Part shown: piece by piece, positions 4,794-44,380 of the stretch
Position numbering within the stretch: the stretch's first letter is position 1
How the letters are laid out: each line of letters starts with the position of its first letter
Origin: Bacteroidaceae bacterium
GTDB taxonomy: Bacteria; Bacteroidota; Bacteroidia; Bacteroidales; Bacteroidaceae
DNA: 45,773 nt
Direction: 5' to 3'
Assembly (NCBI GenBank): GCA_017645655.1
Contig: JAGCNZ010000103.1
Span: forward strand, 1-45,773
Translations under genes and position numbers: made by a program
Notes under the pieces: generated by a model
What the model saw: only the letters and a program-made list of their open reading frames with translations
Told to the model about the DNA's origin: nothing
Databases searched by the model: none

Positions 4794-5296
4794 GTTTTAT
4801 AAGCAATCCTATACCTATATATTATAATATGTGTGAGCTATTCATTCACGCTGAAATTGTCATGGAAATTCATGATTTTTACCCGATTTCCTTGCGATAT
4901 TTGGAAGCGAAAAGCGTCGAGGCTGAATAAAACGCAGTATTTGGCGGTTTAGGCGATACTTGATTATCAGATACTTAACACTAAATATGCATGTAATAAT
5001 AGTGGTTTATGCACAAAAACAACGTGTTTCGAGGCCCATTTCGACATGTTAAAATGGGATTTTCGACGTGTGAAGTTGGCAAACATAACGTGTGATGTTG
5101 ACAAAGTTCACGTGTGAAGTTTCAAAATCTGACGTTTCGAGGTCGAAAATGAGACGTTAGAAAAAAATCTTTACAACTTTTTGCGTCGATTCGCACATAG
5201 TGGTTTGTAAAGTATTTTCCTGTGTTTGGAGAGTTGAATCAAAAGAATATTTTAATTTTTTTCAACTTTCATCTTTTAATTTTTAATTAAAATTCG
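4794..5296. other. Long noncoding spacer upstream of tex
   Basis: About 500 bp with no plausible gene on either strand. It holds the seven-unit 22-bp array (5016-5160), two copies of an ATAGTGGTTT word (near 5000 and 5198) and AT-rich DNA with AGTTGAA/TTCAACT arms near 5232-5267. I recognise no RNA family in 4800-5010. Confidence 0.6.
5016..5160. repeat. 22-bp ACGTG array A (7 units)
   Basis: Cores start at 5022, 5044, 5066, 5088, 5110, 5132 and 5154, exactly 22 bp apart. They read ACGTG, ACATG, ACGTG, ACGTG, ACGTG, ACGTT, ACGTT. The spacers are degenerate, with recurring words such as GAAGTT and CAAA. It lies between the tRNA terminator and tex. Confidence 0.9.
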
Positions 5297-5304
5297 TATC
5301 TTTG
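5297..5304 (+). promoter_or_regulatory. -7 box of tex
   Basis: TATCTTTG, 22 nt before the tex start. Confidence 0.7.
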
Positions 5305-5326
5305 CAAACTGTAAGCGGAAAAAAGA

Positions 5327-7444
5327 ATGAACTACAAACTGATTGCCGAGAGAACAGGCCTCAAAGAGAAGTACGTGCAACAAGTCGTCGATTTGCTGCA
5401 GGACGGGGCTACTGTGCCGTTTATCAGCCGTTATCGCAAAGAAGCGACCGGCGGAATGACGGACGTAGAAGTGGCTCAGGTGGCTGCTGAACTCGACAAC
5501 GTGAACGAGCTTGAGCACCGCAAGGAGTTCATTCTTTCAGCCATCGAGGCACAGGAAAAACTCACTCCAGAACTGCGAAAGCGTATCGAGGAATGTTGGG
5601 ACGCAACCACTTTGGAAGACATCTATCTCCCCTACAAGCAGAAGCGCAGGACTCGTGCTCAAGTCGCTCGTGAAGCCGGACTGGAGCCTCTCGCCGATGC
5701 TATCATGAAGCAGCCAAACACGCCCTTGCATGTGTTGATTCGAAATGCCAAATTCAAGGAAGGATTAAGCGAGGAAGAGGCTCTGCAAGGGGCAAAAGAT
5801 ATTATTGCTGAACGCGTGAGTGAGGACGAACGTGCAAGGCAAACCCTGAGAACGACCTTCTCGATTCATGCTCAGATATGCAGCAAAGTCATCAAAGGCA
5901 AAGATGTTGATGGCCAGAATTATCGTGATTACTTCGACTGGCAAGAACCCCTGAAACGTTGCTCCAGCCATCGCTTGCTGGCTATGCGTCGAGGCGAAGC
6001 AGAAGGCATCTTGCGTGTCAGCATCTGTGTTGACGATGAGCCGGCAATGGAACGAATAGCGAGGCAGTTCGTCAGAGGCAATAATGAATGCAGTCAGGCC
6101 GTGTTGGAAGCCGTCGAGGACGGTTACAAACGACTCCTCGAACCCAGCATCAGCAACGAGTTTGGTGCTTCGTCGAAGCAAAAAGCAGATGCGGAAGCCA
6201 TCCGAGTATTCGTTAGTAATTTGGAACAACTCCTCATGGCATCGCCTCTCGGACAGAAGCGAGTCATGGCGATTGACCCGGGTTTCCGAACAGGTTGCAA
6301 GGTTGTCTGTCTCGATGCGGAAGGTAATCTCCTGCATCATGACGTAATCTTCCCGCATCCCCCTCGTGCTGAGCGCGTTAAGGCGATGCTGACTGTCCAG
6401 AATCTTGTCGAGAAGTATGGCATTCAGGCCATCAGTATAGGCAACGGAACGGCTGGTCGTGAGACGGAAGATTTCGTGCGACACCTTGACCTTCCCGATG
6501 GTGTGGAAGTTTATAGCGTGAGCGAAGACGGAGCCAGCATCTATAGTGCAAGCGAGATTGCACGTGAAGAGTTCCCCAACGAGGACGTGACTGTTCGCGG
6601 AGCCGTCAGCATAGGTCGTCGATTGATGGACCCTCTTGCAGAACTCGTAAAGATAGATCCGTCGAGTATCGGCGTGGGTCAGTACCAGAAAGACGTCAAT
6701 CAAACGGCTCTGAGAAAGAGTCTCGAGGATACCGTCGTCAATTGTGTGAACAGAGTTGGCGTGAACCTCAATACGGCTTCACAATGGTTGTTGACTTACG
6801 TGAGCGGTCTCGGACCTTCGCTTGCCCAGAATATCGTTCGCTATCGACGTGAGAATGGGCCTTTCCACTCGAGAAAAGAGTTGATGAAAGTGCCGCGTCT
6901 TGGAGCAAAAGCCTTCGAGCAATCTGCTGGTTTCCTTCGCATAAAAGGTGGAGACGAGCCGCTCGATAATAGCGCAGTTCACCCCGAAAGATACGACTTG
7001 GTTGCGCAAATGGCTCGCGACCAAAAGTGTTCTGTGACAGAACTTATGGCCGACAAGGCTTTAAGGGACAAGATAGATGTCAATCGTTACGTGAGTGATG
7101 AGGTGGGACTCCCTACCCTTCGCGACATCATGACTGAACTCGACAAGCCAGGTCTCGACCCTCGGCAGCCGCTTCAAGCCTTTTCCTTCGACCCGACAGT
7201 ACATGAAATAACCGACCTTCGCGAGGGAATGGTGCTGCCAGGCATCGTGACGAACATCACCAACTTTGGTGCCTTCGTCGATATAGGCGTTCACATCAAG
7301 GGCTTGGTGCACGTCTCGCAACTTGCCGACCACTATGTTAAAGACCCCACAACCGTTGTAAAAGTGCAACAGCAGGTAATGGTGCGAGTCGTAGGAGTAG
7401 ATTTACAAAGAGAACGCATCTCGCTAAGTATGAAGAAACTATAA
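5327..7444 (+). CDS. tex: Tex family RNA-binding transcription accessory protein
   Basis: 705 residues, full length. Order: N-terminal helical region (MNYKLIAERTGLKEKYVQQV, TVPFISRYRKEATGGM), YqgF/RNase H-like fold near residue 310 (RVMAIDPGFRTGCKV), helix-hairpin-helix region near 490-550 (NIVRYRRENGPFHSRKEL), and a C-terminal S1 RNA-binding domain from about 630 (GIVTNITNFGAFVDIGVH). Tex proteins bind nucleic acid and influence transcription; the exact mechanism is unsettled. A -7 box TATCTTTG (5297-5304) precedes the start. radA begins 3 nt after the stop, so the two are co-transcribed. Confidence 0.96.
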   Translation: MNYKLIAERTGLKEKYVQQVVDLLQDGATVPFISRYRKEATGGMTDVEVAQVAAELDNVNELEHRKEFILSAIEAQEKLTPELRKRIEECWDATTLEDIYLPYKQKRRTRAQVAREAGLEPLADAIMKQPNTPLHVLIRNAKFKEGLSEEEALQGAKDIIAERVSEDERARQTLRTTFSIHAQICSKVIKGKDVDGQNYRDYFDWQEPLKRCSSHRLLAMRRGEAEGILRVSICVDDEPAMERIARQFVRGNNECSQAVLEAVEDGYKRLLEPSISNEFGASSKQKADAEAIRVFVSNLEQLLMASPLGQKRVMAIDPGFRTGCKVVCLDAEGNLLHHDVIFPHPPRAERVKAMLTVQNLVEKYGIQAISIGNGTAGRETEDFVRHLDLPDGVEVYSVSEDGASIYSASEIAREEFPNEDVTVRGAVSIGRRLMDPLAELVKIDPSSIGVGQYQKDVNQTALRKSLEDTVVNCVNRVGVNLNTASQWLLTYVSGLGPSLAQNIVRYRRENGPFHSRKELMKVPRLGAKAFEQSAGFLRIKGGDEPLDNSAVHPERYDLVAQMARDQKCSVTELMADKALRDKIDVNRYVSDEVGLPTLRDIMTELDKPGLDPRQPLQAFSFDPTVHEITDLREGMVLPGIVTNITNFGAFVDIGVHIKGLVHVSQLADHYVKDPTTVVKVQQQVMVRVVGVDLQRERISLSMKKL

Positions 7445-7447
7445 ACG

Positions 7448-8821: not shown

Positions 8822-8822
8822 T

Positions 8823-10379
8823 ATGTTTAGTGTAATATTCGTAGCCTTTTGCTTGGTGTTCATGATTTGGGCACTCATAGCAGACAGATTGAAACCAGGA
8901 CTTATTCTGTTTAGTTGCGTTGTCATGATGCTTTGTGCAGGCATCTTGCAACCCAAGGAATGTTTGGAAGGCTTCTCAAATAAGGGAATGATAACAGTTG
9001 CCCTACTCTTCCTCGTCAGCGAGGGAGTGCGGAGGAGCGGCATTCTCGAGAGAATCATCCTTGGCCTTTTGCCCAACAAGAAGACCACACCCACCAAAGC
9101 CAACGCAAAGCTCCTGCCAACTATTGCCGCTTTGTCTGCATTCCTGAACAACACGCCGGTTGTGGTCATCTTTGCTCCCATCATCAAGAACTGGGCAAGA
9201 AAGGTCGGCATCCCTCACACGAAGTTCCTCATTCCCTTGAGTTACGCAACCGTTCTTGGCGGCATTTGCACCTTGATAGGCACGAGCACGAATCTCGTGG
9301 TTGACGGTCTCATTATTGATTCTGGAAGAGAAGGCATGACGATGTTCGAGCTGGGAAAGGTAGGCATCATCATCTGCTTGGTAGGTCTTTGCTACCTCAT
9401 CTTCTACAGTCATTATTTGCTTCCCGATAGTCGTGAAAGCGAAGTTGAAGATGACGAGAAAGCTGAAGGCGTGCATCGTGTTGAGATAGTGCTGCGAAGT
9501 CGTTTCAACGGATTGGGGAAGACGCTTCGAGAGTATGACTTCTATCGTCAATACGGTGCTACGGTTCGAAGCATTCGCAGAGGCGGTACACTGCTGAGTG
9601 GTGACTGGATGAACATGCCTTTACAAAATCATGATGCCCTGCTGCTTGATGCTGATGAAAAGTTTGTTCAAACTTATCAGGAAACCACATCGTTCCTCAT
9701 CTCAAGCTACGATGCCGACAATCAGCCGCTCAATCCGAGGAAACGTTATCTTGCCCTCATCCTCGTTCTCCTAATGATAATCGGTGCAACAGTTGGCGAA
9801 TTGCCTTTCGTGAAAGAACTTGTGCCGAACTTCAAGTTCGATATGTTCTTCTTTGTCTGCCTCACCACAGTCATCATGGCTTGGGCGAAAATATTCAATC
9901 CACGCCGATACAGCAAGTACGTTTCGTGGGATGTACTTGTAACGATTGCCTGCGCATTCGCCATCTCGAAAGGTATGCAGAACTCAGGCTTTGCTGACTT
10001 CATTGCAGACATCATCATAGCATGTGCCGACGCTATCGGACAGACGGAGCACGGCTCTTATGCGATGCTGGCCATCCTGTTCATCATCACGAACCTCTTC
10101 ACCGAACTCATCACAAACAATGCCGCCGCAGCCCTCTCCTTCCCCCTTGCGTTGGCAGTTGCAGAGAAACTTGGTGTCGACCCGATGCCTTTCTTCATCT
10201 GTATTTGCGTTGCTGCCAGCGCCGCCTTCAGCACCCCGATTGGTTATCAGACGAACCTCCTCGTGCAAGGCATTGGCGGCTATCGCTTTACAGATTATGT
10301 GAAGGTCGGCTTGCCGCTAAACATTATTGTATTTGTAATTAGTGTCTTCATAATTCCTCTAATATGGCCGATACATTAA
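8823..10379 (+). CDS. SLC13 family permease with central RCK_C-like domain (putative sulfate transporter)
   Basis: 518 residues starting MFSVIFVAFCLVFMIWALIA at the ATG at 8823. A TTG 9 nt upstream would overlap the radA stop. About 11-12 membrane segments are split by a soluble part (about 205-300, VHRVEIVLRSRF...ALLLDADEKFV) resembling TrkA-C/RCK_C domains of SLC13 carriers. LNNTPVVVIFAPII and LIGTSTNLVVDG are typical SLC13 pore motifs. The gene starts 1 nt after radA and overlaps cysC by 16 bp. The coupling to cysC-cysD-cysN points to sulfate import; that is inference from context. Confidence 0.85.
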   Translation: MFSVIFVAFCLVFMIWALIADRLKPGLILFSCVVMMLCAGILQPKECLEGFSNKGMITVALLFLVSEGVRRSGILERIILGLLPNKKTTPTKANAKLLPTIAALSAFLNNTPVVVIFAPIIKNWARKVGIPHTKFLIPLSYATVLGGICTLIGTSTNLVVDGLIIDSGREGMTMFELGKVGIIICLVGLCYLIFYSHYLLPDSRESEVEDDEKAEGVHRVEIVLRSRFNGLGKTLREYDFYRQYGATVRSIRRGGTLLSGDWMNMPLQNHDALLLDADEKFVQTYQETTSFLISSYDADNQPLNPRKRYLALILVLLMIIGATVGELPFVKELVPNFKFDMFFFVCLTTVIMAWAKIFNPRRYSKYVSWDVLVTIACAFAISKGMQNSGFADFIADIIIACADAIGQTEHGSYAMLAILFIITNLFTELITNNAAAALSFPLALAVAEKLGVDPMPFFICICVAASAAFSTPIGYQTNLLVQGIGGYRFTDYVKVGLPLNIIVFVISVFIIPLIWPIH

Positions 10380-10963
10380 CTTCAATATACCCCATCTTCG
10401 ACAAGATGATGAGTCGCGAGGACAAGGAGCGGCTGCTCGGACAGAAGGGCATCATGATCTGGATGACTGGCTTGAGTGGTAGCGGCAAGAGTACAGTTGC
10501 AATTGGTGTAGAAAGAGAACTACACAAGCGAGGCATCCTCTGTCGCATCCTCGACGGCGACAACATCCGTGCTGGCATCAATTCCAATCTAGGCTTCTCC
10601 GAAGAAGACCGTCGAGAGAACATTCGTCGTATTGCCGAGATAGGCAAACTCTTCGTCGATACAGGCATTGTCACAATAGCCTGCTTCGTTTCTCCTACAA
10701 CTGAACTGAGAGAGATGGCTCGCAAGATTATTGGCGAAAAAGACTTCCGCGAGGTCTATATCGCCACGCCTCTCGACGAGTGTGAGCGCCGCGATGTGAA
10801 AGGCCTCTATGCCCGTGCCCGCCGAGGAGAAGTAAAGGACTTCACAGGCATCAGCGCCCCGTTCGAAGCCCCCACACATCCTGATCTAAGCCTCGACACG
10901 AGCCAGATGACACTCAAGGAGGAAGTGGAAGCCATAGTTGAGTTGGCTTGTGCCTCAAGCTAA
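10364..10963 (+). CDS. cysC: Adenylyl-sulfate (APS) kinase
   Basis: 199 residues. It phosphorylates APS to PAPS with ATP. P-loop GLSGSGKST (36-44), DGDNIR (64-69), the NLGFSEEDRRENIRRIAEI signature and FVSP with the phospho-acceptor-type Ser110 are all present. It overlaps the SLC13 3' end, so translation is coupled. The N-terminus has about 28 residues before the core (MADTLTSIYPIFDKMM...), slightly long for the family. cysD follows after a 117-bp gap with its own promoter box. Confidence 0.97.
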   Translation: MADTLTSIYPIFDKMMSREDKERLLGQKGIMIWMTGLSGSGKSTVAIGVERELHKRGILCRILDGDNIRAGINSNLGFSEEDRRENIRRIAEIGKLFVDTGIVTIACFVSPTTELREMARKIIGEKDFREVYIATPLDECERRDVKGLYARARRGEVKDFTGISAPFEAPTHPDLSLDTSQMTLKEEVEAIVELACASS

Positions 10964-11049
10964 CAAATTCACCATCATATTTTGACACGCTTTTCAACTT
11001 ATAACCCTTATTTTACCTTTCTCTGTTTCCTATTTTCAATTATAATATG

Positions 11050-11057
11050 TAACTTTG
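11050..11057 (+). promoter_or_regulatory. -7 box for cysD
   Basis: TAACTTTG matches the Bacteroidetes TAnnTTTG element, 23 nt before the cysD start. No clear TTTG -33 element is seen (TTTC at the right distance). Confidence 0.6.
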
Positions 11058-11080
11058 CACATGAATTTAATAAATTATAA

Positions 11081-11989
11081 ATGGAAGAATATCGTTTAAG
11101 TCACCTTCAGGAACTTGAGGCTGAGTCTATTCACATTATTCGAGAAGTGGCGGCAGAGTTCGAAAACCCTGTCATGCTCTATAGCATCGGTAAGGACAGC
11201 AGCGTGATGGCGCGACTTGCCGAGAAGGCGTTTGCACCGGGCAAAGTCCCCTTCCCTCTCATGCACATCGACTCGAAATGGAAGTTCCGCGAGATGATTG
11301 AGTTCCGCGATTCCTATGCAAAAGAGCATGGCTGGAACCTGATTGTCGAAAGCAACATGGAAGCCTTCAATGCTGGCGTGGGACCATTCACGCACGGCAG
11401 CAAGGTGCATACCGACTTGATGAAGACGAAGGCTCTGCTCGATGCTCTGAACAAGTGGAAGTTCGATGCAGCCTTCGGTGGCGCTCGTCGAGACGAAGAG
11501 AAGTCGAGGGCTAAGGAGCGCATCTTCAGCTTCCGCGACCAGTTCAATCAGTGGGACCCAAAGAACCAGCGTCCTGAGCTTTGGGACATCTACAACAGCC
11601 GCGTCCACAAAGGCGAAAGCATTCGCGTCTTTCCTTTAAGCAACTGGACGGAACTCGACATCTGGCAGTACATCCGCCTCGAGAACATCCCCATCGTGCC
11701 CCTCTATTTCGCTAAGGAAAGGCCTTGCGTAGAGATTGACGGCAACCTCATCATGGCAGACGACGACAGATTGCCAAAGGAGCTTGTGCCGAAGATTCAC
11801 ATGCGCATGGTTCGCTTCCGTACCCTTGGCTGCTGGCCTCTGACAGGAGCTGTGGAAAGCAACGCTACCACCATCGAAGAGATTGTGGAGGAGATGATGA
11901 CGACAACGAAGAGCGAACGCACAACTCGCGTCATCGACTTCGACCAAGAGGCAAGCATGGAGCAAAAGAAGAGGGAAGGATATTTCTGA
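11081..11989 (+). CDS. cysD: Sulfate adenylyltransferase subunit 2
   Basis: 302 residues, full length. It carries out adenylylation of sulfate to APS using ATP, with CysN as GTPase partner. The PP-loop is SIGKDS (35-40). [20 protein letters not shown] and [13 protein letters not shown] are diagnostic. cysN follows after 91 bp that contain a heptamer repeat (11995-12015) but no obvious terminator, so the two subunits are probably in one transcript. Confidence 0.98.
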
Positions 11990-11994
11990 AAGCT

Positions 11995-12015
11995 CATAGT
12001 TTTTAGTTTATAGTT
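11995..12015. repeat. Heptamer repeat between cysD and cysN
   Basis: CATAGTT, TTTAGTT, TATAGTT, strict 7-bp period. Confidence 0.75.
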
Positions 12016-12080
12016 TAGGCTCAACGAAAATGTCGTACGACATAACGTTATAACGCAATAACGAAATAATAGAAACAATC

Positions 12081-13514
12081 GTGGAAGACAAACATATTGA
12101 TATTAAGGCTTATCTTGATGCAGACGAGCGGAAGTCGCTCCTCAGATTGCTGACCGCTGGCTCTGTCGATGACGGCAAATCGACACTTATCGGGCGTCTG
12201 CTCTTCGACAGCAAGAAGCTCTATGAAGACCAATTGCAGGCCCTCGAGCGCGACTCGAAGCGTGTGGGCAATGCCGGTGCTGGAGAGATTGACTACGCTC
12301 TGCTGCTCGACGGATTGAAGGCTGAGCGCGAAGAGGGCATCACCATCGATGTGGCTTATCGCTACTTCTCGACAAACCTGCGCAAGTTCATCATCGCCGA
12401 CACTCCAGGACACGAGCAATACACGCGAAACATGATTACTGGCGGCTCGACTGCCAACCTCGCTATCATCCTCGTCGATGCCCGAACTGGCATCATCACG
12501 CAGACACGCCGCCACACTTTCCTCGTCTCGCTGCTCGGCATCAAGCACATCGTCCTTGCCGTCAACAAGATGGACCTCGTGGACTTCTCCGAAGAGGTGT
12601 TCTGCAAGATTAAGAACGAGTACCTCGAACTCACAAATCAACTTGGCATAGAGGATGTCACGTGCTTCCCACTCTCTGCAAAGGAAGGCGACAACGTTGT
12701 AGAGAAGAGCGACAGGACGCCTTGGTTCGAGGGCACTTCCCTACTCCAATACCTCGAGACAGTTCCCATCGATCGAGACAGAAACATGCATGACTTCCGC
12801 TTCCCTGTGCAGTATGTCTTGCGTCCCAACCTCGACTTCCGAGGCTTCTCGGGCAAGGTGGCAAGCGGCGTTATCCGCAAAGGCGACGCAATCATGGCTC
12901 TGCCCAGCAAGAAGACAAGTCGCGTGAAGAGCATCGTCACCTATGATGGCGAGCTGGACTATGCTTTCTGCCCGCAATGCGTCACCATCACGCTCGAGGA
13001 CGAGATAGACATCTCCCGAGGCGAAATGCTCGTCAAACCCGACAATCTGCCCTTCATCGGAAGGCATCTTCAGACAAAGCTTGTCTGGATGGACGAAGAG
13101 CCGATGGACCGCAGCAAGCAGTTCTTCCTCAAAGCAAACACAAATACCACGCGTGCCACCATCAGCGCCATAGACTATCGCATCGATGTCAACACGATGA
13201 AGCACTTGGAAAGCAAGGACTTCAAACTCAACGAGATAGGTCAGGTACAGATAACGACTGCCAAGACACTCTTCTTCGATGCTTACAAGCAGAACAGAGC
13301 GACTGGAGCCTTCATCCTCATCGACCCCATCACGAACAACACATGCGCCGTGGGCATGATTGAGAAACAGCTCGACGAGGCAGACCTCCTGCAGGAAGAC
13401 CTGCCGACACTCGACCTTCCCAAACTCGGCATCACTCCAGAGCACTACGATGCTATTGAGAAAGCCGTGAAGGAACTTAGCAAACAAGGATTGGAGATTG
13501 TAATCAAGAAGTAA
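12081..13514 (+). CDS. cysN: Sulfate adenylyltransferase subunit 1 (GTPase)
   Basis: 477 residues from a GTG start at 12081; no upstream ATG is in frame. It is an EF-Tu-like GTPase: G1 GSVDDGKST (27-35), G3 DTPGHEQY (107-114), G4 NKMD (162-165), then two beta-barrel domains. It lacks a fused CysC kinase, consistent with the separate cysC upstream. The sulfotransferase gene starts 1 nt after its stop, tying PAPS synthesis directly to sulfonate transfer. Confidence 0.97.
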
Positions 13515-13515
13515 C

Positions 13516-14631
13516 ATGGGACTGTTCAACTATCAGCAGCTTCCCGTCAACACCCTTGTTGGTGCCGATTGGAAGACATTCAAGGCTGTCATGAAAGGGC
13601 AGCACATCTCGAAGGATAAAAAGACGACTTACTGGCTGACGAAAGGTATTTGCCGCATCTTAAGCCCATTTGCAGCATTACAAGAGCGAAAGTATCGTAA
13701 GCAATTAGAGAACAAACCATTAGAGAACGACCCTCTTTTCATATTGGGACATTGGCGAAGCGGCACTACCTTCGTCCACAACATCTTTGCTCAGGACAAA
13801 CATTTCGGCTACACAACCACCTATCAGACCGTCTTCCCTCACTACATCATGGCACTTCAAGGCCTCTTCAAGCCTGTCATGAAAGTGGTGATGCCCAACA
13901 AACGTCCTACCGACAACATGGAACTTGCCCCAGACCTGCCTCAGGAAGAAGAGTTCGCGCTGGCAAACATGACAGCCTGCAACTACTACAATTTCTGGTT
14001 CTTTCCCGAAAGGATGCAGGAGTGGTGCGACCGCTTCCTTACCTTCAAAGACATTAAAGACGACGAACTAAGCGAGTTCAAACAGACATTCGAAAAGCTC
14101 GTCAAGATAAGCCTTTGGAACACAGGCGGCACGCAATACTTGAGTAAGAACCCGCCTCACACAGGTCGCGTCAAAGCCCTCTCAGAGCTTTTTCCAGAGG
14201 CACGCTTCGTCTATCTGATGCGCAATCCCTACACCGTCTTCGAGAGCACTCGCTCCTTCTACCTCAGCACCATCAAGCCCCTGCAGTTCCACACCATCAC
14301 AGACGAAGAGATGGAGCAGAACATCCTGCGCAACTACATGGAGCTCTACCGCGCTTACAAAGAGCAGAAAGCCTCTCTGCCCGAAGGAAGGCTCTACGAA
14401 GTGCGCTTCGAGGACATCGAGAAGGATGCAATGAACATCACTGAAGACATATACAAGAAGCTCAACTTGCCAGGTTGGGAGGAAGCAAAGCCTGCCATCG
14501 AGAAATACATACAGAGCAAGAAGGGCTACAAGAAGAACAAATATCAGTACGACCCACGCACTGTCCAGCTCGTCAACGAACATTGGGGAGAAGTTCTCGA
14601 CGAGTGGGGCTACGAAAGGCTTCAGGCTTAA
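13516..14631 (+). CDS. PAPS-dependent sulfotransferase
   Basis: 371 residues. The 5'-phosphosulfate-binding loop is GHWRSGTTFVHN (78-89). The 3'-phosphate-binding strand and helix are RFVYLMRNPYTVFESTR, with Arg236 and Ser244 at the expected spots. SKNPPHTGRVKAL precedes it. This is the Sulfotransfer_3-type fold without signal peptide, so cytoplasmic. It transfers sulfonate from PAPS to an unknown acceptor. From memory, Bacteroides thetaiotaomicron has a comparable gene next to PAPS-synthesis genes that sulfonates steroids such as cholesterol; whether this copy does so cannot be told from sequence alone. It is the last gene of the cys operon. Confidence 0.9.
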   Translation: MGLFNYQQLPVNTLVGADWKTFKAVMKGQHISKDKKTTYWLTKGICRILSPFAALQERKYRKQLENKPLENDPLFILGHWRSGTTFVHNIFAQDKHFGYTTTYQTVFPHYIMALQGLFKPVMKVVMPNKRPTDNMELAPDLPQEEEFALANMTACNYYNFWFFPERMQEWCDRFLTFKDIKDDELSEFKQTFEKLVKISLWNTGGTQYLSKNPPHTGRVKALSELFPEARFVYLMRNPYTVFESTRSFYLSTIKPLQFHTITDEEMEQNILRNYMELYRAYKEQKASLPEGRLYEVRFEDIEKDAMNITEDIYKKLNLPGWEEAKPAIEKYIQSKKGYKKNKYQYDPRTVQLVNEHWGEVLDEWGYERLQA

Positions 14632-14646
14632 GCGGAAAACGCTCCA

Positions 14647-14759
14647 AGGTGTGATTAAAAACATCACACGGTATAATTCAAAATATTACACGTGATATTT
14701 CAAATATTACACGTGATAATTGCAAACATCACGTGTTATGTTTGCCGACTTAACACGCA
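14647..14759. repeat. 22-bp ACGTG array B
   Basis: Cores at 14668, 14690, 14711, 14731 and 14755 (spacing 22, 21, 20, 24). Spacer words include ATATTTCAAATATT and GCAAACATC. The first part folds as a hairpin GTGTGAT-taaaaac-ATCACAC (14649-14669), which may end the cys operon transcript. Confidence 0.85.
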
Positions 14760-14857: not shown

Positions 14858-17590
14858 ATGAATTTCTTCAGAAAAAAAGATACAAGCAAAGAGCAGCCCA
14901 TCCAGCCTACTCCGCAAGTTGAAAAGAATGAGGCACCGGGAGCCGACGCTCCTGAGAGCACGGCCGAAGGCGGAATAAACTTCAACTTCGAAGAGCTCGC
15001 CACAAATGCTCATCCTCATCGCGACCCTCGCATCCTGAACTCGACCCAGTTGCAGCGCATCAAGGATGCGAAGCGCTTGGCAGAGACGAAACTGCAGGGA
15101 CTCGAAGAGAGTCTCAGCAGATTGCAGGCACAGCAACAATGGCTTCGACGCTACAACGAGACCCATATGGCCCTGGAACGCGAGAAGAAACGCCTCTTCG
15201 AACTCGGAAAGCAGAAAGCAATCTTTGCCAAAGATGCCAGCATGCTGGAGCGCTACGACCTCTTCGAAGGCGTGCACGGAACTTATCAGAAACTCGCAGT
15301 AGTAAGGGACCAGATAGGCAGGGACAAGCGAGGATTGAGCCTCCTGGAAAGGGAAGCCGACGAGAATCGACAGAAGATGACCGACCAGGAAAAGCGTCTG
15401 CAGCAAGCAAGCGAGCAGTACACGAACGCAACAACCAGCCTGCTTGATGCCTTCGACCACGTTTGCTCGGCCTATCAGCTTATGGGCGCCAACGAAGTCC
15501 TCAACGCGGAAAGCTCTTTCCTGCTCGAACATAACAATAAGGTAAAAGAGGAGATGGCGGCTCTTTCATCCCTGATTGCAGAGAAAGAAAGGGAGGTGGA
15601 GGCTTTGCAAGCGCAAGTAGGTCACCTTCGCACCAAGCGCCAGAGCATGGAGATGCACGAAAGCATGCTTTGTCATGGCGAGGCAACACTACTGCAACTC
15701 AAGTATTTGGAAGACAGAGACAAGCGTCGGACCGAGCTTCAACAACAGCGACAGCAGGCCATAAAGCGTCAGAACGAGGAAAACGAACTGCTTGGCAAAG
15801 CCTTCTCTCAGTTCCAAGACCTCGTCTCGCTTGCCGAAACGGCAGAGGCCGAGCTGAGCATGCACCGTTCATACATTCAAGGTCAGGACGGTCTGATGCT
15901 TCAGGAACGAGCCCTTATGCTGAAAGGACGACGCCAGCAACTGCTCTCTGCCCTATCTCTTTGGAAGCGCATCAGCACCGGCTACGAGAGCATCGAGGCG
16001 AAAAGCAAGAAGGTGACTGCACTGAGGCTCAACATCCAGCATCTGGAGGACGGCGTCCGCGAGCTTGAGGCAGAAGCAGGAAAAGCACAACGCCTTTGCA
16101 AAGAGAAAGAATACACCTACCTGTTGAGCAAGGGACAGGACATCATCCAGCTGCGCGCAGACCTCAAGGAAGGAGTAAGCTGCTCCGTCTGCGGCGCCAC
16201 ACATCACCCATATCACAGCGACACGATGCTCGACCAAAGCAAGCTCATCGGACAAATGAAGACCGACTATGAGCTGCTTGCCTCTGAATCGAACGCTAAG
16301 CAACAACAACTCTCGGAGTTGCGAGCCGAACTGGCAACTGCAAAGGGACAGCTCGGCGCTGAAGAGGAATCGCTCAACACGATTCGCATCCGTCAAAATG
16401 AAGATGTGATGGAATGGAAACTTTATGCTCAGCTCGACCCGACCTTCGCAGAATGTTCCGAAAGCACTAACCTCGATGCCAGAACAGCTCTGCTCCGTCA
16501 GTTCATAGAAAACGTCAGTCGCGATGCATCGGTAGCCGAAAAGGAACTTGAGACATTCACCTTCCACCAGAGCAGCATCGCCAAGCTCAGCGAAGAATTG
16601 CAAAAGCTGGAGCAGAAGAAGAGTGAAGTCAACGTGCGACTCGGCGAACTGAACACCGGATGCCAGGTGCTTAGCCGTGAAGTGGAACAAGTTGGCATGC
16701 GACTCGAGAGTCTCAACAAACAATTCACTCGCATATACGAGAGTACGCAGCAAGCAGTCACCATCAAGGATTGGTACACCGTTTGGCAAAAGACACCAGA
16801 ACAGCTTTACGAGCAGATACAGAAACTCATCACCGACTGGTATGCCGTTGAGCAGGAGATTGCCGAAAAGCAAGCAGCACTCGATGTGGAAGTAGCAAGA
16901 ATGGAAGGCATGAAGGCGCTATTGCAATCGTTCGCTCGCTCATCGCAAGTCATCACGAAACACAACGAAGACATCGAAGGCAGAAAGGCGGAGAACGACA
17001 AGACATATCAGCAAATGATACCTGAGCGAGATGCCAAGACTCTGTATCAAAAGCATCTGCAGAACGTAAGGTCAGCACGCGAGCAATACGAGGAAGAACG
17101 CTCCCGGATGGATGACACTCGTCATGACAGAGATATCATGCAAGGTCGGCACTACTACTACAAAGACCACATCGCAAGGCTCGAAGGCGAACAAACGGGA
17201 CTGAACGAAAAGCTCGACCTCTGGATGCATGCCTTCAACCTGCAGCATCCTCCTGTGCAGTTGGGCGAGCTAGACGAAGTATTTGTCGACGGAAAGGACT
17301 GGAGCAAGATACGCAGCAACTTGAAGCAAATAAATGAAGACACGCTATTGTGCCAGGCAAAGGTCGAGGACCTGAACAGTCGAATTATTGCACTCGACAC
17401 GGAAGACGGACGATGCAGCACTCAGTCACCCGACATCCAGGAAAGCATCGCAGCCAAACAGCAAGCGCTAACCAGGCAACGCAACGACACGATGATGCAG
17501 ATTGCACGACTCTCCATGCAACTCGAAGACCACGAAAGGGCACTTGCAGCCGAGCGAAATTCGGCCGAGCCAATTGCAAACATGGCATGA
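14858..17590 (+). CDS. Headless Rad50/SbcC-like zinc-hook coiled-coil protein
   Basis: 910 residues. Apart from a Pro/Glu-rich N-terminus (about 1-50), nearly the whole chain is Glu/Gln/Lys-rich coiled coil. At the centre is a Rad50/SbcC zinc hook: SCSVCGATHHPYH with Cys442 and Cys445, against the SbcC consensus CPxCGS..HP. LERYDLFEGVHGTYQKL resembles the SbcC arm just past the head. There is no Walker A in the N-terminus and no ABC signature, Walker B or D-loop in the C-terminus. The flanks (array B upstream, a promoter spacer downstream) contain no split-off head. The nearby genes suggest no partner. It could be a structural tether or dominant partner of a true SbcC; function unknown. Confidence 0.8.
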   Translation: MNFFRKKDTSKEQPIQPTPQVEKNEAPGADAPESTAEGGINFNFEELATNAHPHRDPRILNSTQLQRIKDAKRLAETKLQGLEESLSRLQAQQQWLRRYNETHMALEREKKRLFELGKQKAIFAKDASMLERYDLFEGVHGTYQKLAVVRDQIGRDKRGLSLLEREADENRQKMTDQEKRLQQASEQYTNATTSLLDAFDHVCSAYQLMGANEVLNAESSFLLEHNNKVKEEMAALSSLIAEKEREVEALQAQVGHLRTKRQSMEMHESMLCHGEATLLQLKYLEDRDKRRTELQQQRQQAIKRQNEENELLGKAFSQFQDLVSLAETAEAELSMHRSYIQGQDGLMLQERALMLKGRRQQLLSALSLWKRISTGYESIEAKSKKVTALRLNIQHLEDGVRELEAEAGKAQRLCKEKEYTYLLSKGQDIIQLRADLKEGVSCSVCGATHHPYHSDTMLDQSKLIGQMKTDYELLASESNAKQQQLSELRAELATAKGQLGAEEESLNTIRIRQNEDVMEWKLYAQLDPTFAECSESTNLDARTALLRQFIENVSRDASVAEKELETFTFHQSSIAKLSEELQKLEQKKSEVNVRLGELNTGCQVLSREVEQVGMRLESLNKQFTRIYESTQQAVTIKDWYTVWQKTPEQLYEQIQKLITDWYAVEQEIAEKQAALDVEVARMEGMKALLQSFARSSQVITKHNEDIEGRKAENDKTYQQMIPERDAKTLYQKHLQNVRSAREQYEEERSRMDDTRHDRDIMQGRHYYYKDHIARLEGEQTGLNEKLDLWMHAFNLQHPPVQLGELDEVFVDGKDWSKIRSNLKQINEDTLLCQAKVEDLNSRIIALDTEDGRCSTQSPDIQESIAAKQQALTRQRNDTMMQIARLSMQLEDHERALAAERNSAEPIANMA

Positions 17591-19746: not shown

Positions 19747-19846
19747 ACGTCTCACGTCACGATACCAAACATGACACGTGTAGTTGCCCAACTTAACACG
19801 TGTAGTTTGCCAACATCACGCGTTAAGTTTGCGATTTAACCGTGCG
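19747..19846. repeat. 22-bp ACGTG array C
   Basis: Cores at 19754, 19776, 19798, 19818 and 19840 (22, 22, 20, 22). Words such as TAGTTTGCCAAC and AACTTAACACGTG recur. It fills the convergent gap between queF and the DPP IV-like gene. Confidence 0.85.
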
Positions 19847-22115: not shown

Positions 22116-22143
22116 AGTTCATAGTTCATAGTCCATAGTTCAT
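22116..22143. repeat. Heptamer repeat, AGTTCAT type
   Basis: Four 7-bp units (AGTTCAT, AGTTCAT, AGTCCAT, AGTTCAT) in the divergent gap between the DPP IV-like gene and nhaA. Confidence 0.85.
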
Positions 22144-22153
22144 AATAATTTTG

Positions 22154-25818: not shown

Positions 25819-25891
25819 AAAGCGAGTATATTATACATTATTTATACATAAGACTTGAAAAGTGCCCAATAGTTTAATGGGACGATGAAAA

Positions 25892-25990
25892 ACGTCACGT
25901 GGGTAAAATGAAAATATTACGTGGAATATTTGAAATATCACGTGGGTAAAATGAATTTATCACGTGGGTAAAATTAAATTATCACGTGCC
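25892..25990. repeat. 22-bp ACGTG array D
   Basis: Cores at 25897, 25919, 25940, 25962 and 25984 (22, 21, 22, 22). The typical unit is CACGTGGGTAAAATGAA. It lies between the GH92 start and the GT2 stop, both minus strand. Confidence 0.9.
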
Positions 25991-29203: not shown

Positions 29204-29231
29204 AGTTCATAATTCATACTGCATAATTCAT
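29204..29231. repeat. Heptamer repeat, AATTCAT type
   Basis: Units AGTTCAT, AATTCAT, ACTGCAT, AATTCAT in the divergent gap between tamL and the TrmH gene. Confidence 0.8.
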
Positions 29232-29249
29232 AATTTTATTATTTTTTCG

Positions 29250-30048: not shown

Positions 30049-30094
30049 GTCGCACCAAGAGACCTAATCAAACACAGCAGGGAATAATTGCAAT

Positions 30095-30197
30095 TTACCC
30101 ACGTGATATTTAAAATATTCCACGTGATATTTTCATTTTACCCACGTTAGGTTTTCATTTTACCCACGTTAAGTTTTGCCAACTACCCAATGACGTT
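30095..30197. repeat. 22-bp ACGTG array E
   Basis: Cores at 30101, 30122, 30144 and 30166 (21, 22, 22), with a further ACGTT at 30193. The words TTTCATTTTACCCACGT and AAATATTCCACGTG are shared with arrays D and G. It lies in the convergent gap. Confidence 0.9.
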
Positions 30198-33354: not shown

Positions 33355-33426
33355 AACACGCCTGGTTTTTCAACTAGGCGTGTTATGTTTAGCAATTATG
33401 CGTGCCGTGTTTGAAATTTAGACGTG
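33355..33426. repeat. 22-bp ACGTG array F with terminator-like hairpin
   Basis: Cores at 33358, 33378, 33400 and 33422 (20, 22, 22), reading ACGCC, GCGTG, GCGTG, ACGTG. The first two units form a 13-bp stem (AACACGCCTGGTT / AACTAGGCGTGTT, one G-T) with a 4-nt loop, 33355-33384, between convergent genes. Confidence 0.85.
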
Positions 33427-33429
33427 CTC

Positions 33430-35440: not shown

Positions 35441-35492
35441 TATTTACTATTTACTATTTATTTACTATTTAGTAATTTATCTATTTACTATT
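35441..35492. repeat. Heptamer repeat, TTTACTA type
   Basis: TTTACTA/ATTTACT units with some 8-bp slips just upstream of the permease gene, adjoining a CGGGA-CA-TCCCG hairpin. Confidence 0.8.
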
Positions 35493-38561: not shown

Positions 38562-38585
38562 GTGTTTTTGGGGTTAAACTTTATG

Positions 38586-38593
38586 CAAAGGTA
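38586..38593 (-). promoter_or_regulatory. -7 box of the DUF4923 operon
   Basis: TACCTTTG on the minus strand, 25 nt before the first ATG. Confidence 0.7.
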
Positions 38594-38601
38594 CGAAATA
38601 T

Positions 38602-38636
38602 AATTCATAAAACATAATTTATAATTCATAATTTAT
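38602..38636. repeat. Heptamer repeat, AATTCAT type
   Basis: Five units AATTCAT, AAAACAT, AATTTAT, AATTCAT, AATTTAT overlapping the expected -33 region of the DUF4923 promoter. Confidence 0.8.
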
Positions 38637-38691
38637 CTTCGGCAGACAAAAAAAAAAGCCTGCGCGTTGCCAGACCCTTCTCTTTTCTTCG

Positions 38692-38710
38692 CGGGAAATC
38701 CCGTTTCCCG
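38692..38710. repeat. REP-like hairpin CGGGAAA / TTTCCCG
   Basis: Perfect 7-bp arms with loop TCCCG, just downstream (minus strand) of the small ORF. A run of ten A (38648-38657) follows and could be the T-tract of a minus-strand terminator. Confidence 0.6.
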
Positions 38711-38721
38711 TTCCCCAGGTG

Positions 38722-38919
38722 TCAGAGTTTCTTGAACTGATGATTCGAGAGCCTTTCTATTCTGCCTGCCTTTTCGAGGGCTTGGAAGTTGTGTTTCGAG
38801 GCGCCGTTGCATTTCTGCATTTCTTCTTTCGACGTGCAGCCGTTTTGCTTATGACGAAAAGCGTAAAACTGCTGGCGACTGAAGATGTTTGACATGGCTG
38901 CGAAGGCGCCTTCAACCAT
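38722..38919 (-). CDS. Small hypothetical protein, possibly a gene remnant
   Basis: 65 residues from the ATG at 38919 (MVEGAFAAMSNIFSRQQFYA...). The same frame stays open upstream for 18 more codons (IEQYIKCIRRPS) with no ATG, up to a stop next to a heptamer repeat, so the true start may be lost or non-ATG. The composition is basic with several Cys, cytoplasmic, and no family is recognised. It lies between the DUF4923 operon and the S41 gene on the minus strand. Confidence 0.35.
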   Translation of the reverse strand: MVEGAFAAMSNIFSRQQFYAFRHKQNGCTSKEEMQKCNGASKHNFQALEKAGRIERLSNHQFKKL

Positions 38920-38977
38920 CGAGGGACGACGTATACACTTGATATACTGCTCGATGACTCGGATTAAACGGATAAAT

Positions 38978-39047
38978 CATACTTCAAACCTCATACTTCA
39001 TACTTCTTCCCTCTCACCTCTCACTTCTTACCTCTCACTTCTCAGCC
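38978..39047. repeat. Heptamer repeat, CATACTT / CTCACTT type (10 units)
   Basis: Ten consecutive 7-bp units run through the S41 stop codon (39028-39030) and encode its last residues. Confidence 0.9.
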
Positions 39048-40913: not shown

Positions 40914-40916
40914 AGC

Positions 40917-43700
40917 TTAGAAATCAAAGCTCAGCTGACCATTGGAATCATCCTGAGTCTTTTCAGGTTCTTCACTTTCTGGCACTTCAGGCTCATCATT
41001 TTCTCCACTTTCGGCAGAGAGGTCGGGAGCGGGAAGGGGGACATCCCGATAAGTAGAAGGAAACCTTGTTGGCTCAAGCTCTTCAACCTTAGCGATGTGC
41101 AGCGTAGTGATACGCTTGCCTATGGCCTTGTAGCCCTTCACGGCAATGAATGCCTCCACGTCCAGCTCAATTGGGTCGCGGAACTCATCAACTCCGCCCA
41201 TCGTCACAAGCACACGTGGATAGACGGTGTCCGTCACAAGCACTATGTTCTCGGCTGGCATCTCGTTCATGAAGCTCTGTATGCGAACCGTCGCCTCCAG
41301 CTGGAAGCGCTTGATGTAGAGGAAGTTACTCTGCGCATCATTGAAGTAGATGCACGTCCAGACTTTATTCGCATCATACTTCTCGATGCGGAAGATGTCT
41401 TCTTCGTAGTGGTTGTTCAGGTCGATGTTTGTCAGGTAGTAGCGTCCGTCCTTGAGCATGACAAGTATCTGGTCGTTGCCGTCGAACTCACCGAGGAACT
41501 TGCCTTGTCCGTCATAGTTGAGGCGCTTGATGTCTGTATCAAACCAAACCTTGCGGCCACCCAAAGTGCTGGTACCCTGACTCTTGAGCGTCACCTTGCT
41601 CACTTCTATCTTGGTCAGCATATTGCCCTTGGTGCCTCTGCCCTTGATGGCAATCTCGCTGAAATCCTTGTCGAAGAACACCTTCTTGAGCTTCGGATTG
41701 GGCTTCAAGGCAACCTTCACCACTTCTGCTTCGCCATTGGGATTCGCCGTGAAATACAGCACTTTAGAACCAGCATTGCCTTGTGTCAGGTCATACTCCT
41801 TGTCGCGTATCACGGCTGTCACATTGAAGCGCTTGATATAGCTCACACCAGTCTTGCCGTCACGGTAAACAGCATTGTAGATGGTGCGCTCGTCATTCTT
41901 GCGGAAGACGGCTATGTGAATGACTTCAGCCTTCTTCTTCTCCTTCTTGCTGCGTTCCGTCTCGCCGATGAAGAGCTTGTCTGCTATGCGAACAATCTTG
42001 AAGGTGCCGTCGCGATAGAAGACTATGACATCGTCAATGTCAGAGCAGTTGCTGACGAACTCGTCCTTCTTCAACGAGGTGCCGATGAAGCCATCTTCTC
42101 TGTTGATGTAGAGCTTCTCGTTGGCCTCCACCACCTTAGCCGCTGCAATGGTGTCGAAGTTGCGAACCTCAGTGAGGCGCGGATGGTCATTGCCGTACTT
42201 ATCCTTGATGAAGCGGAACCATTCGCAAGTCACCTCCACCATGTTCTTCAACTCCTTGTCTATCTGCTTTATTTCGCTCTTGATGGCGGCGATGTTCTGC
42301 TCAGCCTTATCCTTGTTGAACTTCAGGATGCGCGCCATCTTGATGTCCATCAGGCGGAGGATGTCGTCCTTAGTCACCTCGCGCACCATCTTGGGATAGT
42401 AAGGCGTCAGGCGCTCGTCAATCCATTCGCAGGCGGCATCCATCGTCTTGGCCTGCTCGAACTCTTTGTCCTTGTAGATGCGTTCCTCGATGAATATCTG
42501 TTCGAGTGTGGCAAAGTGCAGACTCTCCATCAACTCACCTCTGCGGATGAGCCTTTCCTGTCGCAATAATGCCAAGGTGTTGTCCACACTGGAGCGCAGC
42601 ACATCGCTCACCGACAGGAACTGCGGCTTCCTGTCCTGAATGACACAGCAGTTCGGCGAAATGCTTATCTCGCAATCCGTGCAGGCATACAGCGCATCAA
42701 TCGTCTTGTCGCTCGAGGCACCAGGAGTCAAATGGATGAGTATCTCAGCACTTGCAGCCGTCAAGTCCTCAACATTCCTAATCTTAATCTTGCCACGCTC
42801 GTTGGCCTTCAGAATGCTGTCTATGAAAGTGCTCGGCTTGCTTGCCGTGCCAGTTGTCTTGCCATAAGGTATCTCAGTAATAGCCAGCGTCTTATTGTCG
42901 CGCTTCTCTATCTTTGCACGAACACGCACAGAACCACCTCTCTGCCCGTCGTTGTACTTCGAGACATCTATGCTGCCTCCCGTCGGAAAGTCTGGGTAGA
43001 GATGGAACTCCTCGCCATGTAGGTAGCTGATGGCAGCATCGCAAATCTCGACCAGGTTGTGCGGAAGTATCTTGCAGTTCAAGCCAACGGCAATACCTTC
43101 AGCACCCTGAGCAAGCAGCAACGGGAACTTAACAGGCAGCGCAACCGGCTCCTTGTTCCTGCCATCATAGCTCCACTTCCATTCAGTCGTCTTTGGATTG
43201 AACACCACATCCAGCGCAAACTTAGACAGGCGTGCCTCAATATAACGACCAGCAGCGGCATCATCACCAGTAATGATGTTGCCCCAGTTGCCCTGGCAGT
43301 CAACAAGCAAGTCCTTCTGACCAAGCTGCACAAGCGCGTCCTTGATACTGGCATCACCATGAGGGTGGAACTGCATCGTGTGACCAACAATGTTAGCCAC
43401 CTTATTGTACTTGCCGTCGTCCATCCTCTTCATAGAGTGCATGATGCGGCGCTGCACAGGCTTGAAGCCATCGGCAATGTGCGGCACGGCACGCTCCAGG
43501 ATTACATACGAAGCATAATCCAGAAACCAATTCTGGTACATCTTGTTCAAGTGATGCGTGATGCCATCACCAGTCCATTGCCCAAGTTCAGGAGCCTGCG
43601 GTCCGCAGTCCGTCGTCTCTTGTCCGCTGTCAGCAGTCAGTTGGCCTTCGTCCGTCGTCTCTTGTACATTGTCGTTTGTCTCTTGTCCTTCGTCAATCAT
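40917..43700 (-). CDS. parC: DNA topoisomerase IV subunit A
   Basis: 927 residues. The breakage-reunion domain shows MYQNWFLDYASYVILERAVP, DGFKPVQRRIMHSM, HPHGDASI and the catalytic Tyr153 in GRYIEARLSKFA. The divergent C-terminal part from about 520 is the Bacteroidetes ParC type and ends QLSFDF. With ParE (not in window) it decatenates chromosomes. The first 46 residues are a 7-residue repeat (DEGQETN, DNVQETT, DEGQLTA, DSGQETT ...) encoded by 18 heptamer units. The -7 box at 43731-43738 gives a short leader to the ATG at 43700, so the repeat is probably translated. A REP-like element lies inside the 3' end (41030-41048). Confidence 0.93.
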   Translation of the reverse strand: MIDEGQETNDNVQETTDEGQLTADSGQETTDCGPQAPELGQWTGDGITHHLNKMYQNWFLDYASYVILERAVPHIADGFKPVQRRIMHSMKRMDDGKYNKVANIVGHTMQFHPHGDASIKDALVQLGQKDLLVDCQGNWGNIITGDDAAAGRYIEARLSKFALDVVFNPKTTEWKWSYDGRNKEPVALPVKFPLLLAQGAEGIAVGLNCKILPHNLVEICDAAISYLHGEEFHLYPDFPTGGSIDVSKYNDGQRGGSVRVRAKIEKRDNKTLAITEIPYGKTTGTASKPSTFIDSILKANERGKIKIRNVEDLTAASAEILIHLTPGASSDKTIDALYACTDCEISISPNCCVIQDRKPQFLSVSDVLRSSVDNTLALLRQERLIRRGELMESLHFATLEQIFIEERIYKDKEFEQAKTMDAACEWIDERLTPYYPKMVREVTKDDILRLMDIKMARILKFNKDKAEQNIAAIKSEIKQIDKELKNMVEVTCEWFRFIKDKYGNDHPRLTEVRNFDTIAAAKVVEANEKLYINREDGFIGTSLKKDEFVSNCSDIDDVIVFYRDGTFKIVRIADKLFIGETERSKKEKKKAEVIHIAVFRKNDERTIYNAVYRDGKTGVSYIKRFNVTAVIRDKEYDLTQGNAGSKVLYFTANPNGEAEVVKVALKPNPKLKKVFFDKDFSEIAIKGRGTKGNMLTKIEVSKVTLKSQGTSTLGGRKVWFDTDIKRLNYDGQGKFLGEFDGNDQILVMLKDGRYYLTNIDLNNHYEEDIFRIEKYDANKVWTCIYFNDAQSNFLYIKRFQLEATVRIQSFMNEMPAENIVLVTDTVYPRVLVTMGGVDEFRDPIELDVEAFIAVKGYKAIGKRITTLHIAKVEELEPTRFPSTYRDVPLPAPDLSAESGENDEPEVPESEEPEKTQDDSNGQLSFDF
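41030..41048. repeat. REP-like CGGGA ... TCCCG element inside parC
   Basis: CGGGAAGGGGGACATCCCG with 5-bp arms, related on the opposite strand to the element at 35495; it encodes the variable RDVPLPAP stretch near the C-terminus. Confidence 0.5.
43569..43694. repeat. Heptamer repeat encoding the ParC N-terminus (18 units)
   Basis: On the minus strand successive 7-bp units mostly begin GAC (GACGAAG, GACAAGA, GACAAAC, GACAATG, ...). Since 3 units equal 21 nt, the peptide repeats every 7 residues. Confidence 0.9.
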
Positions 43701-43730
43701 CAGTTTTAAGCTTTGAGGTCATTTATCCCA

Positions 43731-43738
43731 CAAAGGTA
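43731..43738 (-). promoter_or_regulatory. -7 box of parC
   Basis: TACCTTTG on the minus strand, with CTTG (minus) about 20 nt further upstream as a near-match to the -33 TTTG. Confidence 0.7.
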
Positions 43739-43811
43739 GGATTTTTCTGAAAGATACGCAAGCGAAAAGCAACAAACTTTTGAGAGAGAAGGCAAAAACA
43801 CCCATTTTGCA

Positions 43812-44189
43812 TCATCTGTAGAACCTCGGACGAGGCTTAAAAGCATCCTCATAGTGTTCTATCCTGCTTCCGTACTCATTGTAAATGATGCCAATCACGT
43901 CAAAACGGCAGCGAAAGTCAATATGATGAGCCTTCAGATAAGAGTCCGCAGCCAGCACGACACGATGCTGCTTGCTGGCATTCACAGCGGAAATAGGCGT
44001 AGTGGCGGAACCTACCTTGCGCGTCTTAACCTCCACAAAGACAACCACATCATCCTTCGTCGCAACAATATCCAGCTCCTTGCGACCCCTGTTCGTCCAG
44101 TTGCGCTCCAAGATGCAATAGCCCTGCTCTTGCAGATACTCCGCAGCCAAGTCCTCGCCCCTATGTCCCAAATCATTGTGAGCAGCCAT
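43812..44189 (-). CDS. YraN / UPF0102 endonuclease-fold protein
   Basis: 125 residues. LGHRGEDLAAEYLQEQGY, WTNRGRKELDIVATKDDVVVFVEVKTRK and FDVIGI are the YraN signatures; the Glu/Asp/Glu-x-Lys (ELDIV...EVK) arrangement is that of Holliday-resolvase-type nucleases. Activity is not established for the family. It lies upstream of parC on the same strand with a 111-bp gap holding the parC promoter. Confidence 0.92.
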   Translation of the reverse strand: MAAHNDLGHRGEDLAAEYLQEQGYCILERNWTNRGRKELDIVATKDDVVVFVEVKTRKVGSATTPISAVNASKQHRVVLAADSYLKAHHIDFRCRFDVIGIIYNEYGSRIEHYEDAFKPRPRFYR

Positions 44190-44270
44190 ATACTTCTACA
44201 TTGACGATGCAAATTTACAGATTTTCCTCCACAACGCAAAACGTAGCAGGCAAAAAGACACACAACGACA

Positions 44271-44380
44271 ACGTTTCAAACATTCCACGTGATAAATTCA
44301 TTTTACCCACGTAATATTTCAAATATTCCACGTAATAATTTCATTTTACCCACGTGAAGTTTTCAAACACACCATGGCAC
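44271..44380. repeat. 22-bp ACGTG array G
   Basis: Cores at 44287, 44309, 44330, 44352 and 44374 (22, 21, 22, 22; the last is ATGG). TTTCATTTTACCCACGT and AAATATTCCACGT words are shared with arrays D and E. It lies between yraN and the Ig-like gene, both minus strand. Confidence 0.9.

Follow-up and report, generated by a model that had tools for sequence, protein, structure and literature searches.

Intergenic arrays with a 22-bp period and genome-specific words in a genus of Bacteroidaceae, candidate rows of protein-binding sites

The stretch of DNA analysed here (the window) is contig C105, 45,773 bases long and one of the 130 contigs of genome G000 (2.74 Mb, 84% complete), from a bacterium of the family Bacteroidaceae. 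Seven of its intergenic gaps hold an array, that is, a row of cores close to CACGTG recurring about every 22 bp (Table 1). A first-pass annotation had placed seven arrays here, and all were present, six of them scoring clearly and the seventh (33355-33426) being degenerate. We called genes with a home-made hexamer-based open reading frame caller, so that gap types and lengths are approximate. Among the 21 window gaps of at least 60 bp, chains of at least three cores (at most one mismatch, 20-24 bp apart) occurred in 6, and 37 matches out of 66 at lag 22 were reached in 5. By the annotation's own condition, shuffled intergenic DNA giving such arrays as often would have refuted the observation; in 300 dinucleotide-preserving shuffles of the same gaps neither the chains nor the lag-22 scores appeared even once. 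Array 6 was the weakest, with no chain at that stringency and a lag-22 score of 35 over the gap or 37 locally. Array 7 showed an inverted match to array 4 (79 bp, 96%).

Table 1. Arrays of the window, with strand and layout of X and Y units where assigned
Array	Position	Strand	Setting and composition
1	5016-5160		tRNA-tex gap; 7 cores at 22 bp; GTTGGCAAAC-type middles
2	14646-14757		between two + genes; cores CACGG, CACGTG, CACGTG, CACGTG, AACACG; one ATATTTCAAATATTA (Y-type) unit
3	19753-19844		convergent gap between QueF-like and DPPIV-like peptidase genes; cores CACGTC, CACGTG, CACGTG, CACGCG, CCGTG
4	25889-25989	-	between two - genes; genome-specific word on the minus strand; layout X-X-Y-X
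5	30084-30177	+	convergent gap; layout Y-X-X
6	33355-33427		convergent gap; degenerate; cores CACGCC, GGCGTG, TGCGTG, GACGTG
7	44274-44365	+	between two - genes; layout X-Y-X

The arrays are not confined to the window, a condition on which the annotation had made its observation depend: across G000, CACGTG-N16-CACGTG (at most one mismatch) occurred at 642 sites, compared with 4 for the reversed pattern. In 578 kb of this genome (window included) we found 57 CACGTG arrays, about 99 per Mb, and none in the reversed sequence; a 351-kb sample (the window and 20 stretches) held 34, whereas its reversal gave none and three block shuffles together gave 1. Extrapolation gave roughly 270 arrays per genome. 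They had about 4-10 cores each, and 55 of the 57 lay between two called genes; of the other two, one fell within a called gene and one at the end of a contig. Intergenic autocorrelation over lags 5-69 in the 351 kb was highest at lag 22 (0.336), with lag 7 at 0.305, lag 44 at 0.304 and smaller peaks at 21, 43, 65 and 66, while the coding sequence of the same sample showed no peak at lag 22.

Core-to-core gaps in the 57 arrays were 22 bp (204), 21 bp (53), 20 bp (14) or 24 bp (14), and never 23 bp. The spacing previously given as 20-24 bp and mostly 22 is thus dominated by 22 and tighter than described. Gaps of 20 and 24 bp tended to coincide with flips of flank orientation, as would follow from a dyad centre displaced by about 1 bp from the middle of CACGTG, and from this we infer a true spacing of 22 bp. 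Most 21-bp gaps belonged to one special unit, Y (37 in directional arrays). The earlier suggestion that the cores lie on one DNA face holds roughly, since at 10.5 bp per turn 22 bp is two turns plus 34 degrees, and the cores drift by about 170 degrees over five units.

In 39 of the 57 arrays we recognized a directional word, with X units (about ATAAATTSATTTTACC after CACGTG) arranged around a 21-bp Y unit (CACGTG plus ATATTTSAAATATTM). Y was present in 37 of these 39, and X units kept one direction on both sides of it. We counted the 37-bp X-Y-X pattern (at most three mismatches) 71 + 73 = 144 times in G000, whereas 138 other genomes of the genus lacked it altogether. The fixed layout, the 144 copies of one genome-specific word and the lack of a significant orientation to genes (14 vs 8) all favour the main rival explanation, which we consider a possibility to be taken seriously if a rather unlikely one: a selfish or neutral dispersed repeat, similar to a miniature inverted-repeat transposable element (MITE) or a minisatellite, that is copied or gene-converted between intergenic sites and has no host function, gene ends being simply sites that tolerate insertions. 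Alignment of the 37 arrays on Y argues against such a repeat. Information peaked centrally at about 1.8 bits, stood at 1.3-1.7 bits in the adjoining bins and faded gradually to near zero at about 100 bp on either side, with no sharp border and no terminal inverted repeats. Further against it, the 84%-complete genome had no match to the Y1 transposase of the repetitive extragenic palindromic (REP)-associated type (RAYT; Y1_Tnp, PF01797), other transposases not being searched, and a REP/RAYT system was ruled out for G000 on this absence. RAYT was found in 62 of 139 genomes of the genus, these genomes being incomplete: array-bearing G027 and G035 were among the 62, and array-bearing G018, G024, G016, G012 and G008 were not.

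REP elements have species-specific sequences and a bias to gene 3' ends. According to the portion of the source cited here, REPIN/RAYT repeats are high-copy, short, palindromic and extragenic (PMC3116915). The G000 arrays resemble REP, bacterial interspersed mosaic elements (BIMEs) and REPINs in being high-copy, short, extragenic, genome-specific and palindromic in part; REP/REPIN elements are inverted doublets that form one hairpin, whereas the arrays are rows with a 22-bp period and no covariation between arms. As far as the cited sections describe it, BrickBuilt is a MITE of Porphyromonas gingivalis with a 23-nt minisatellite, known from that species and P. gulae in 19 copies of 1 to 22.8 repeats, with a leader and a tail carrying IS5-like terminal inverted repeats, and strain W83 is noted there as having previously been reported to carry 22-nt tandem repeats (PMC4596501). 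On that description it shares with the arrays intergenic tandem repeats, a nearly equal unit length and a host in the Bacteroidales, and it differs from them in that they have about 4-10 cores, stand at about 99 arrays per Mb and change their words between genomes. Neither a leader and tail nor terminal inverted repeats appeared in the 37 Y-aligned arrays, and the 23-nt period was missing from G000, where 22 dominates. The arrays are not CRISPR-like either, their spacers being common to several loci rather than unique; cas genes were not searched.

The CACGTG word in which the arrays were first noticed is limited to G000 and some relatives, and the 22-bp period is widespread in the genus. Lag 22 was the top intergenic lag in 13 of the 19 genomes of the genus that were measured, comprising 10 of 12 in a first set that included G000 (weakly in G014, z 2.5) and 3 of 7 congeners in a further set; G011 was too small to measure, and G005 and G034 were omitted for the same reason. 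When 21 other genomes of the genus were pooled, the lag-22 threshold was reached in 91 of 524 gaps, against 25 for lag 21, 19 for lag 14 and 0-9 for the other lags. Outside the family, 20 genomes totalling 247 kb, some represented by only a few hundred or thousand bases, showed no lag-22 peak (z -0.5), and 1 of 107 gaps scored at lag 22 and 3 at lag 23. The threshold for intergenic array counts was 35-38 matches out of 66, with slight differences between analyses. Gaps dominated by 7- or 14-bp repeats were kept in these pooled per-lag counts and excluded from the symmetry, location, terminator, word-listing and gap-pair analyses.

The words seen include CACGTG, AACACGTTA, GGTTAACC, CTGCAG, GCGACRCGTC and GAACCATGGTTC, and in one G017 array GAACCATGGTTC was kept while the 10-bp middles were unrelated. 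That unrelated words share one 22-bp period in many genomes is left unexplained by a selfish repeat alone. Among the comparison loci L044-L123, which come from rumen and gut assemblies of Bacteroidaceae, Prevotellaceae and Bacteroidales, the gap upstream of tex carried arrays in nine relatives as in the window (L044, L045, L046, L047, L050, L051, L069, L079, L123), with words ranging from similar to that of the window (L044) to unrelated (L046, L079), and it carried none in L049 and L056. A few arrays of relatives scored at lag 23. At 38 more distant tex loci (62-70% identity) we counted 11 array gaps, of which 7 came from L098 and L112, and the lag-22 signal was gone without these two (z 0.1).

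Two observations concern the composition of individual rows. At the G008 loci L144-L147, the end units of AACACGTTA arrays often replaced the internal core by one of CCTAG/CTGGG type, as though a separate word were used at the ends. In L054, at about 15880-15990, a 22-bp array was directly followed by AAATATATTT-like cores in a row with a spacing of about 21 bp, so that different array types can adjoin.

Among gaps of at least 90 bp without tRNA genes, 44 of the 123 convergent ones carried an array, compared with 74 of 558 tandem ones (p 3e-8) and 27 of 214 divergent ones (p 1e-6); for G000 alone the counts were 16/29, 32/113 and 7/46, respectively. Of the 74 tandem arrays, 53 lay nearer the upstream stop codon (Wilcoxon p 1e-5). 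Divided by gap length, convergent, tandem and divergent gaps held arrays in 6/45, 5/209 and 0/61 cases at 90-150 bp, in 20/42, 21/168 and 2/69 at 150-250 bp, in 13/25, 27/120 and 14/55 at 250-500 bp, and in 5/11, 21/61 and 11/29 above 500 bp. The near absence from short divergent gaps and the frequent presence in long ones indicate that divergent gaps are avoided only when short.

The location at gene 3' ends would suit an explanation by RNA, with tandem hairpins in transcript ends acting in termination, stability or processing, and AACTTCACGTGTGAAGTT-like units are able to form short hairpins. Dyad symmetry itself was clear: at the best centre it averaged 0.527 in 157 arrays, compared with 0.428 (standard deviation 0.057) in a column-permuted null, and 51% of the arrays exceeded the 95th percentile of the null, the G000 arrays being lower (0.457). 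In the 127 of these 157 arrays with a symmetry of at least 0.42, to which the covariation tests were restricted, complementarity between the two arms of a dyad (0.591) did not exceed that between arms taken from different units (0.592), and 879 of 2280 doubly variable cells were paired, where 892.6 ± 20.1 were expected. In the most symmetric subsets pairing was even below expectation (z -2.6 in 72 arrays, z -2.9 in 51). This lack of arm covariation makes the symmetry look like a half-site preference rather than base pairing.

Other results spoke against an RNA element. At the gathering threshold, Rfam gave no match in the window besides 5S rRNA and tRNA, and arrays also occur in divergent gaps (27/214). 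Terminator-like hairpins stood at 16 of 141 gene ends with arrays and at 15 of 165 without (p 0.57), on which ground we rejected the arrays as gene terminators; a GC-rich hairpin followed by a T run, replacing other terminators, was not what we found. The native unit order folded slightly more stably than permuted orders (mean z -0.26, standard error 0.06, 313 strand folds), a weak effect in favour of RNA. The first-pass annotation had listed an RNA element among its options; with no within-dyad covariation and a folding effect that is only small, we set the hairpin reading aside and judge an RNA element quite improbable. The arrays are thus poorly matched by REP/RAYT, by BrickBuilt MITEs, by intrinsic terminators and by RNA hairpins.

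Two genomes of the genus, G024 and G012, had about 44 kb in common at 91% identity, including five orthologous GGTTAACC arrays. Within these arrays, identity was 132/144 in the cores, 93/108 in the arms and 113/154 in the middles, compared with 645/798 in the rest of the same gaps and 1075/1250 in gaps without arrays. Cores had changed more slowly than middles (p 3e-5) and than flanks (p 0.001), and this, like the dyad symmetry, is left without an explanation by a selfish repeat alone. Whole-array presence and absence, on the other hand, speaks for such a repeat: one orthologous gap measured 210 bp in G012, where it held four cores in an array, and 81 bp in G024, where it had no array, a third genome being rearranged there, and at the array 5 locus the window and L050 both had arrays, with different words, while the convergent genes nearly abutted, with no array, in L045, L046 and L057. 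In the same sense, L054 and L121 differed at one site by two whole units (44 bp). Orthologous gap pairs were concordant for arrays in 20 cases and discordant in 42, most of the concordant ones representing the single gap upstream of tex, and we therefore dropped conserved array position as a general claim. A phage origin was likewise rejected, the one exact 16-mer match in viral contigs (L244) being apparently coding, with no array in the 501 bases around it.

The alternation of AT-rich middles and GC-rich cores in G000 could also suggest that phased segments bend the DNA for HU-like proteins or gyrase by intrinsic shape, with no sequence-specific recognition. HU-HIG proteins (PF18291) are in fact more numerous in the genus (median 6, range 2-19, in 36 congeners) than in 24 other families of the order (median 2, range 1-17). 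Their number does not follow the arrays, array-poor G015 having 12 and G000 7, and HU-HIG was rejected as the binder for this reason. Several arrays of GC-richer congeners have no AT-rich middle (L154 in G003; L159 at 17392, L160 and L161 in G018), and exact words are common to arrays across one genome, so that we regard shape alone as very unlikely. LytTR response regulators bind direct repeats about 21-22 bp apart, a spacing that like ours is near two helical turns. LytTR had no match in G000, where it was accordingly rejected as the binder, 0-4 per genome in the 36 congeners and 1-15 in the 24 other families.

A constant period with variable words, together with dyads whose arms do not pair and slower cores, is most simply accounted for by rows of sites for a dimeric, sequence-specific protein, a reading that we hold at about even confidence. 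Each site would be a dyad, in G000 around CACGTG, bound by a dimer, with neighbouring dimers 22 bp apart and close enough for contact. The protein or proteins, and hence the word, would be genome-specific and quickly changing, the two co-evolving, while the 22-bp geometry would be kept because protein-protein contact sets it. The annotation had proposed cooperative binding of a dimeric protein; the dyads, the lack of arm covariation and, in one genome pair, the slower change of cores agree with a dimer, and binding is what we infer from them. As the arrays are mostly downstream of genes, above all in convergent gaps, and rare in short divergent ones, a bound row at gene ends would most likely block or insulate transcription, or anchor the nucleoid.

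A mechanistic analogy is offered by the stoperators of Cluster A mycobacteriophages, described in the cited part of PMC6550527 as many dispersed, non-promoter repressor sites at which bound repressor blocks transcription elongation; these 13-bp phage sites mostly have one orientation to transcription, and from genome to genome their consensus varies along with the protein that recognizes them (PMC6550527). Judged by that description, dispersed sites and a genome-dependent consensus are shared, whereas the arrays are chromosomal dyads in 22-bp rows whose orientation bias is not significant and whose cognate protein is putative. REPIN/RAYT, BrickBuilt and stoperators are the nearest known kinds, and each fails or misses a defining feature. 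The cited portions of PMC8040213 and PMC5771137 contain no description of such arrays, and among the matches listed from the open-access literature (subscription papers and preprints being outside its scope) we recognized no period-22 arrays with changing words.

Several results weigh against rows of dimeric sites. No binding protein was identified, and several words coexist within one genome (G012, G024), which would require several proteins. Lag 22 was not the top lag in 6 of the 19 genomes of the genus (G015, G031, G013, G002, G010, G019). The core conservation comes from one genome pair, with cores chosen by word match in one member, and cores compared with array-free gaps (132/144 vs 1075/1250) did not differ significantly (p 0.07). 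The middles of the G000 arrays are conserved almost to the level of the cores, and a single 21-bp Y is present in 37 of the 39 directional arrays, as if arrays had been copied whole; a copied or gene-converted family is the better explanation of the fixed layout and the 144 near-identical copies. The slight folding advantage of the native unit order belongs here too. A role at gene ends is weakened in that tandem and divergent gaps showed no overall difference (p 0.91), above 250 bp the frequency of arrays was the same in divergent gaps (25/84) as in tandem gaps (48/181), and the array itself lengthens its convergent gap, so that the location could be promoter avoidance in short gaps rather than function. 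Nor was the directional word significantly oriented to transcription (14 co-directional, 8 opposite, p 0.29). The two accounts may also hold together, the arrays spreading by copying and owing their period to binding.

More tentatively, and with less than even confidence, the arrays could belong to a genus-wide system in which a rapidly diverging family of DNA-binding proteins co-evolves with a genome-specific dyad word in a fixed 22-bp geometry, hundreds of rows marking gene ends, as a counterpart of satellite- or centromere-type co-evolution or as chromosomal stoperators. Dispersed bacterial repeats are usually distinguished by their sequence; here the geometry is constant and the sequence is replaced from genome to genome, and searches by sequence therefore miss the family. 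If a protein is behind the arrays, they would offer a chance to study the turnover of specificity in a DNA-binding protein that has targets by the hundred on the chromosome, and perhaps a new way of separating convergent transcripts in a group of rumen and gut Bacteroidales.

Other features of the window lie apart from the arrays. A second class of intergenic tandem repeats has 7-bp units (TTCATAA-like and others), some with inverted matches to each other, at 852-876, 2813-2845, 2900-2931, 22116-22144, 29206-29235, 35441-35492 and 38596-38636; these repeats look unrelated to the 22-bp arrays and are the source of much of the lag-14/21 background. An apparent sulfate activation cluster (APS kinase, a PAPS-reductase-family protein and an EF-Tu-type GTPase), followed by a sulfotransferase-family gene, occupies 10364-14631. 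A tRNA gene lies on the plus strand at 4679-4752 and a 5S rRNA gene on the minus strand at 45637-45747, near the contig end, which suggests that the contig probably breaks at an rRNA operon.

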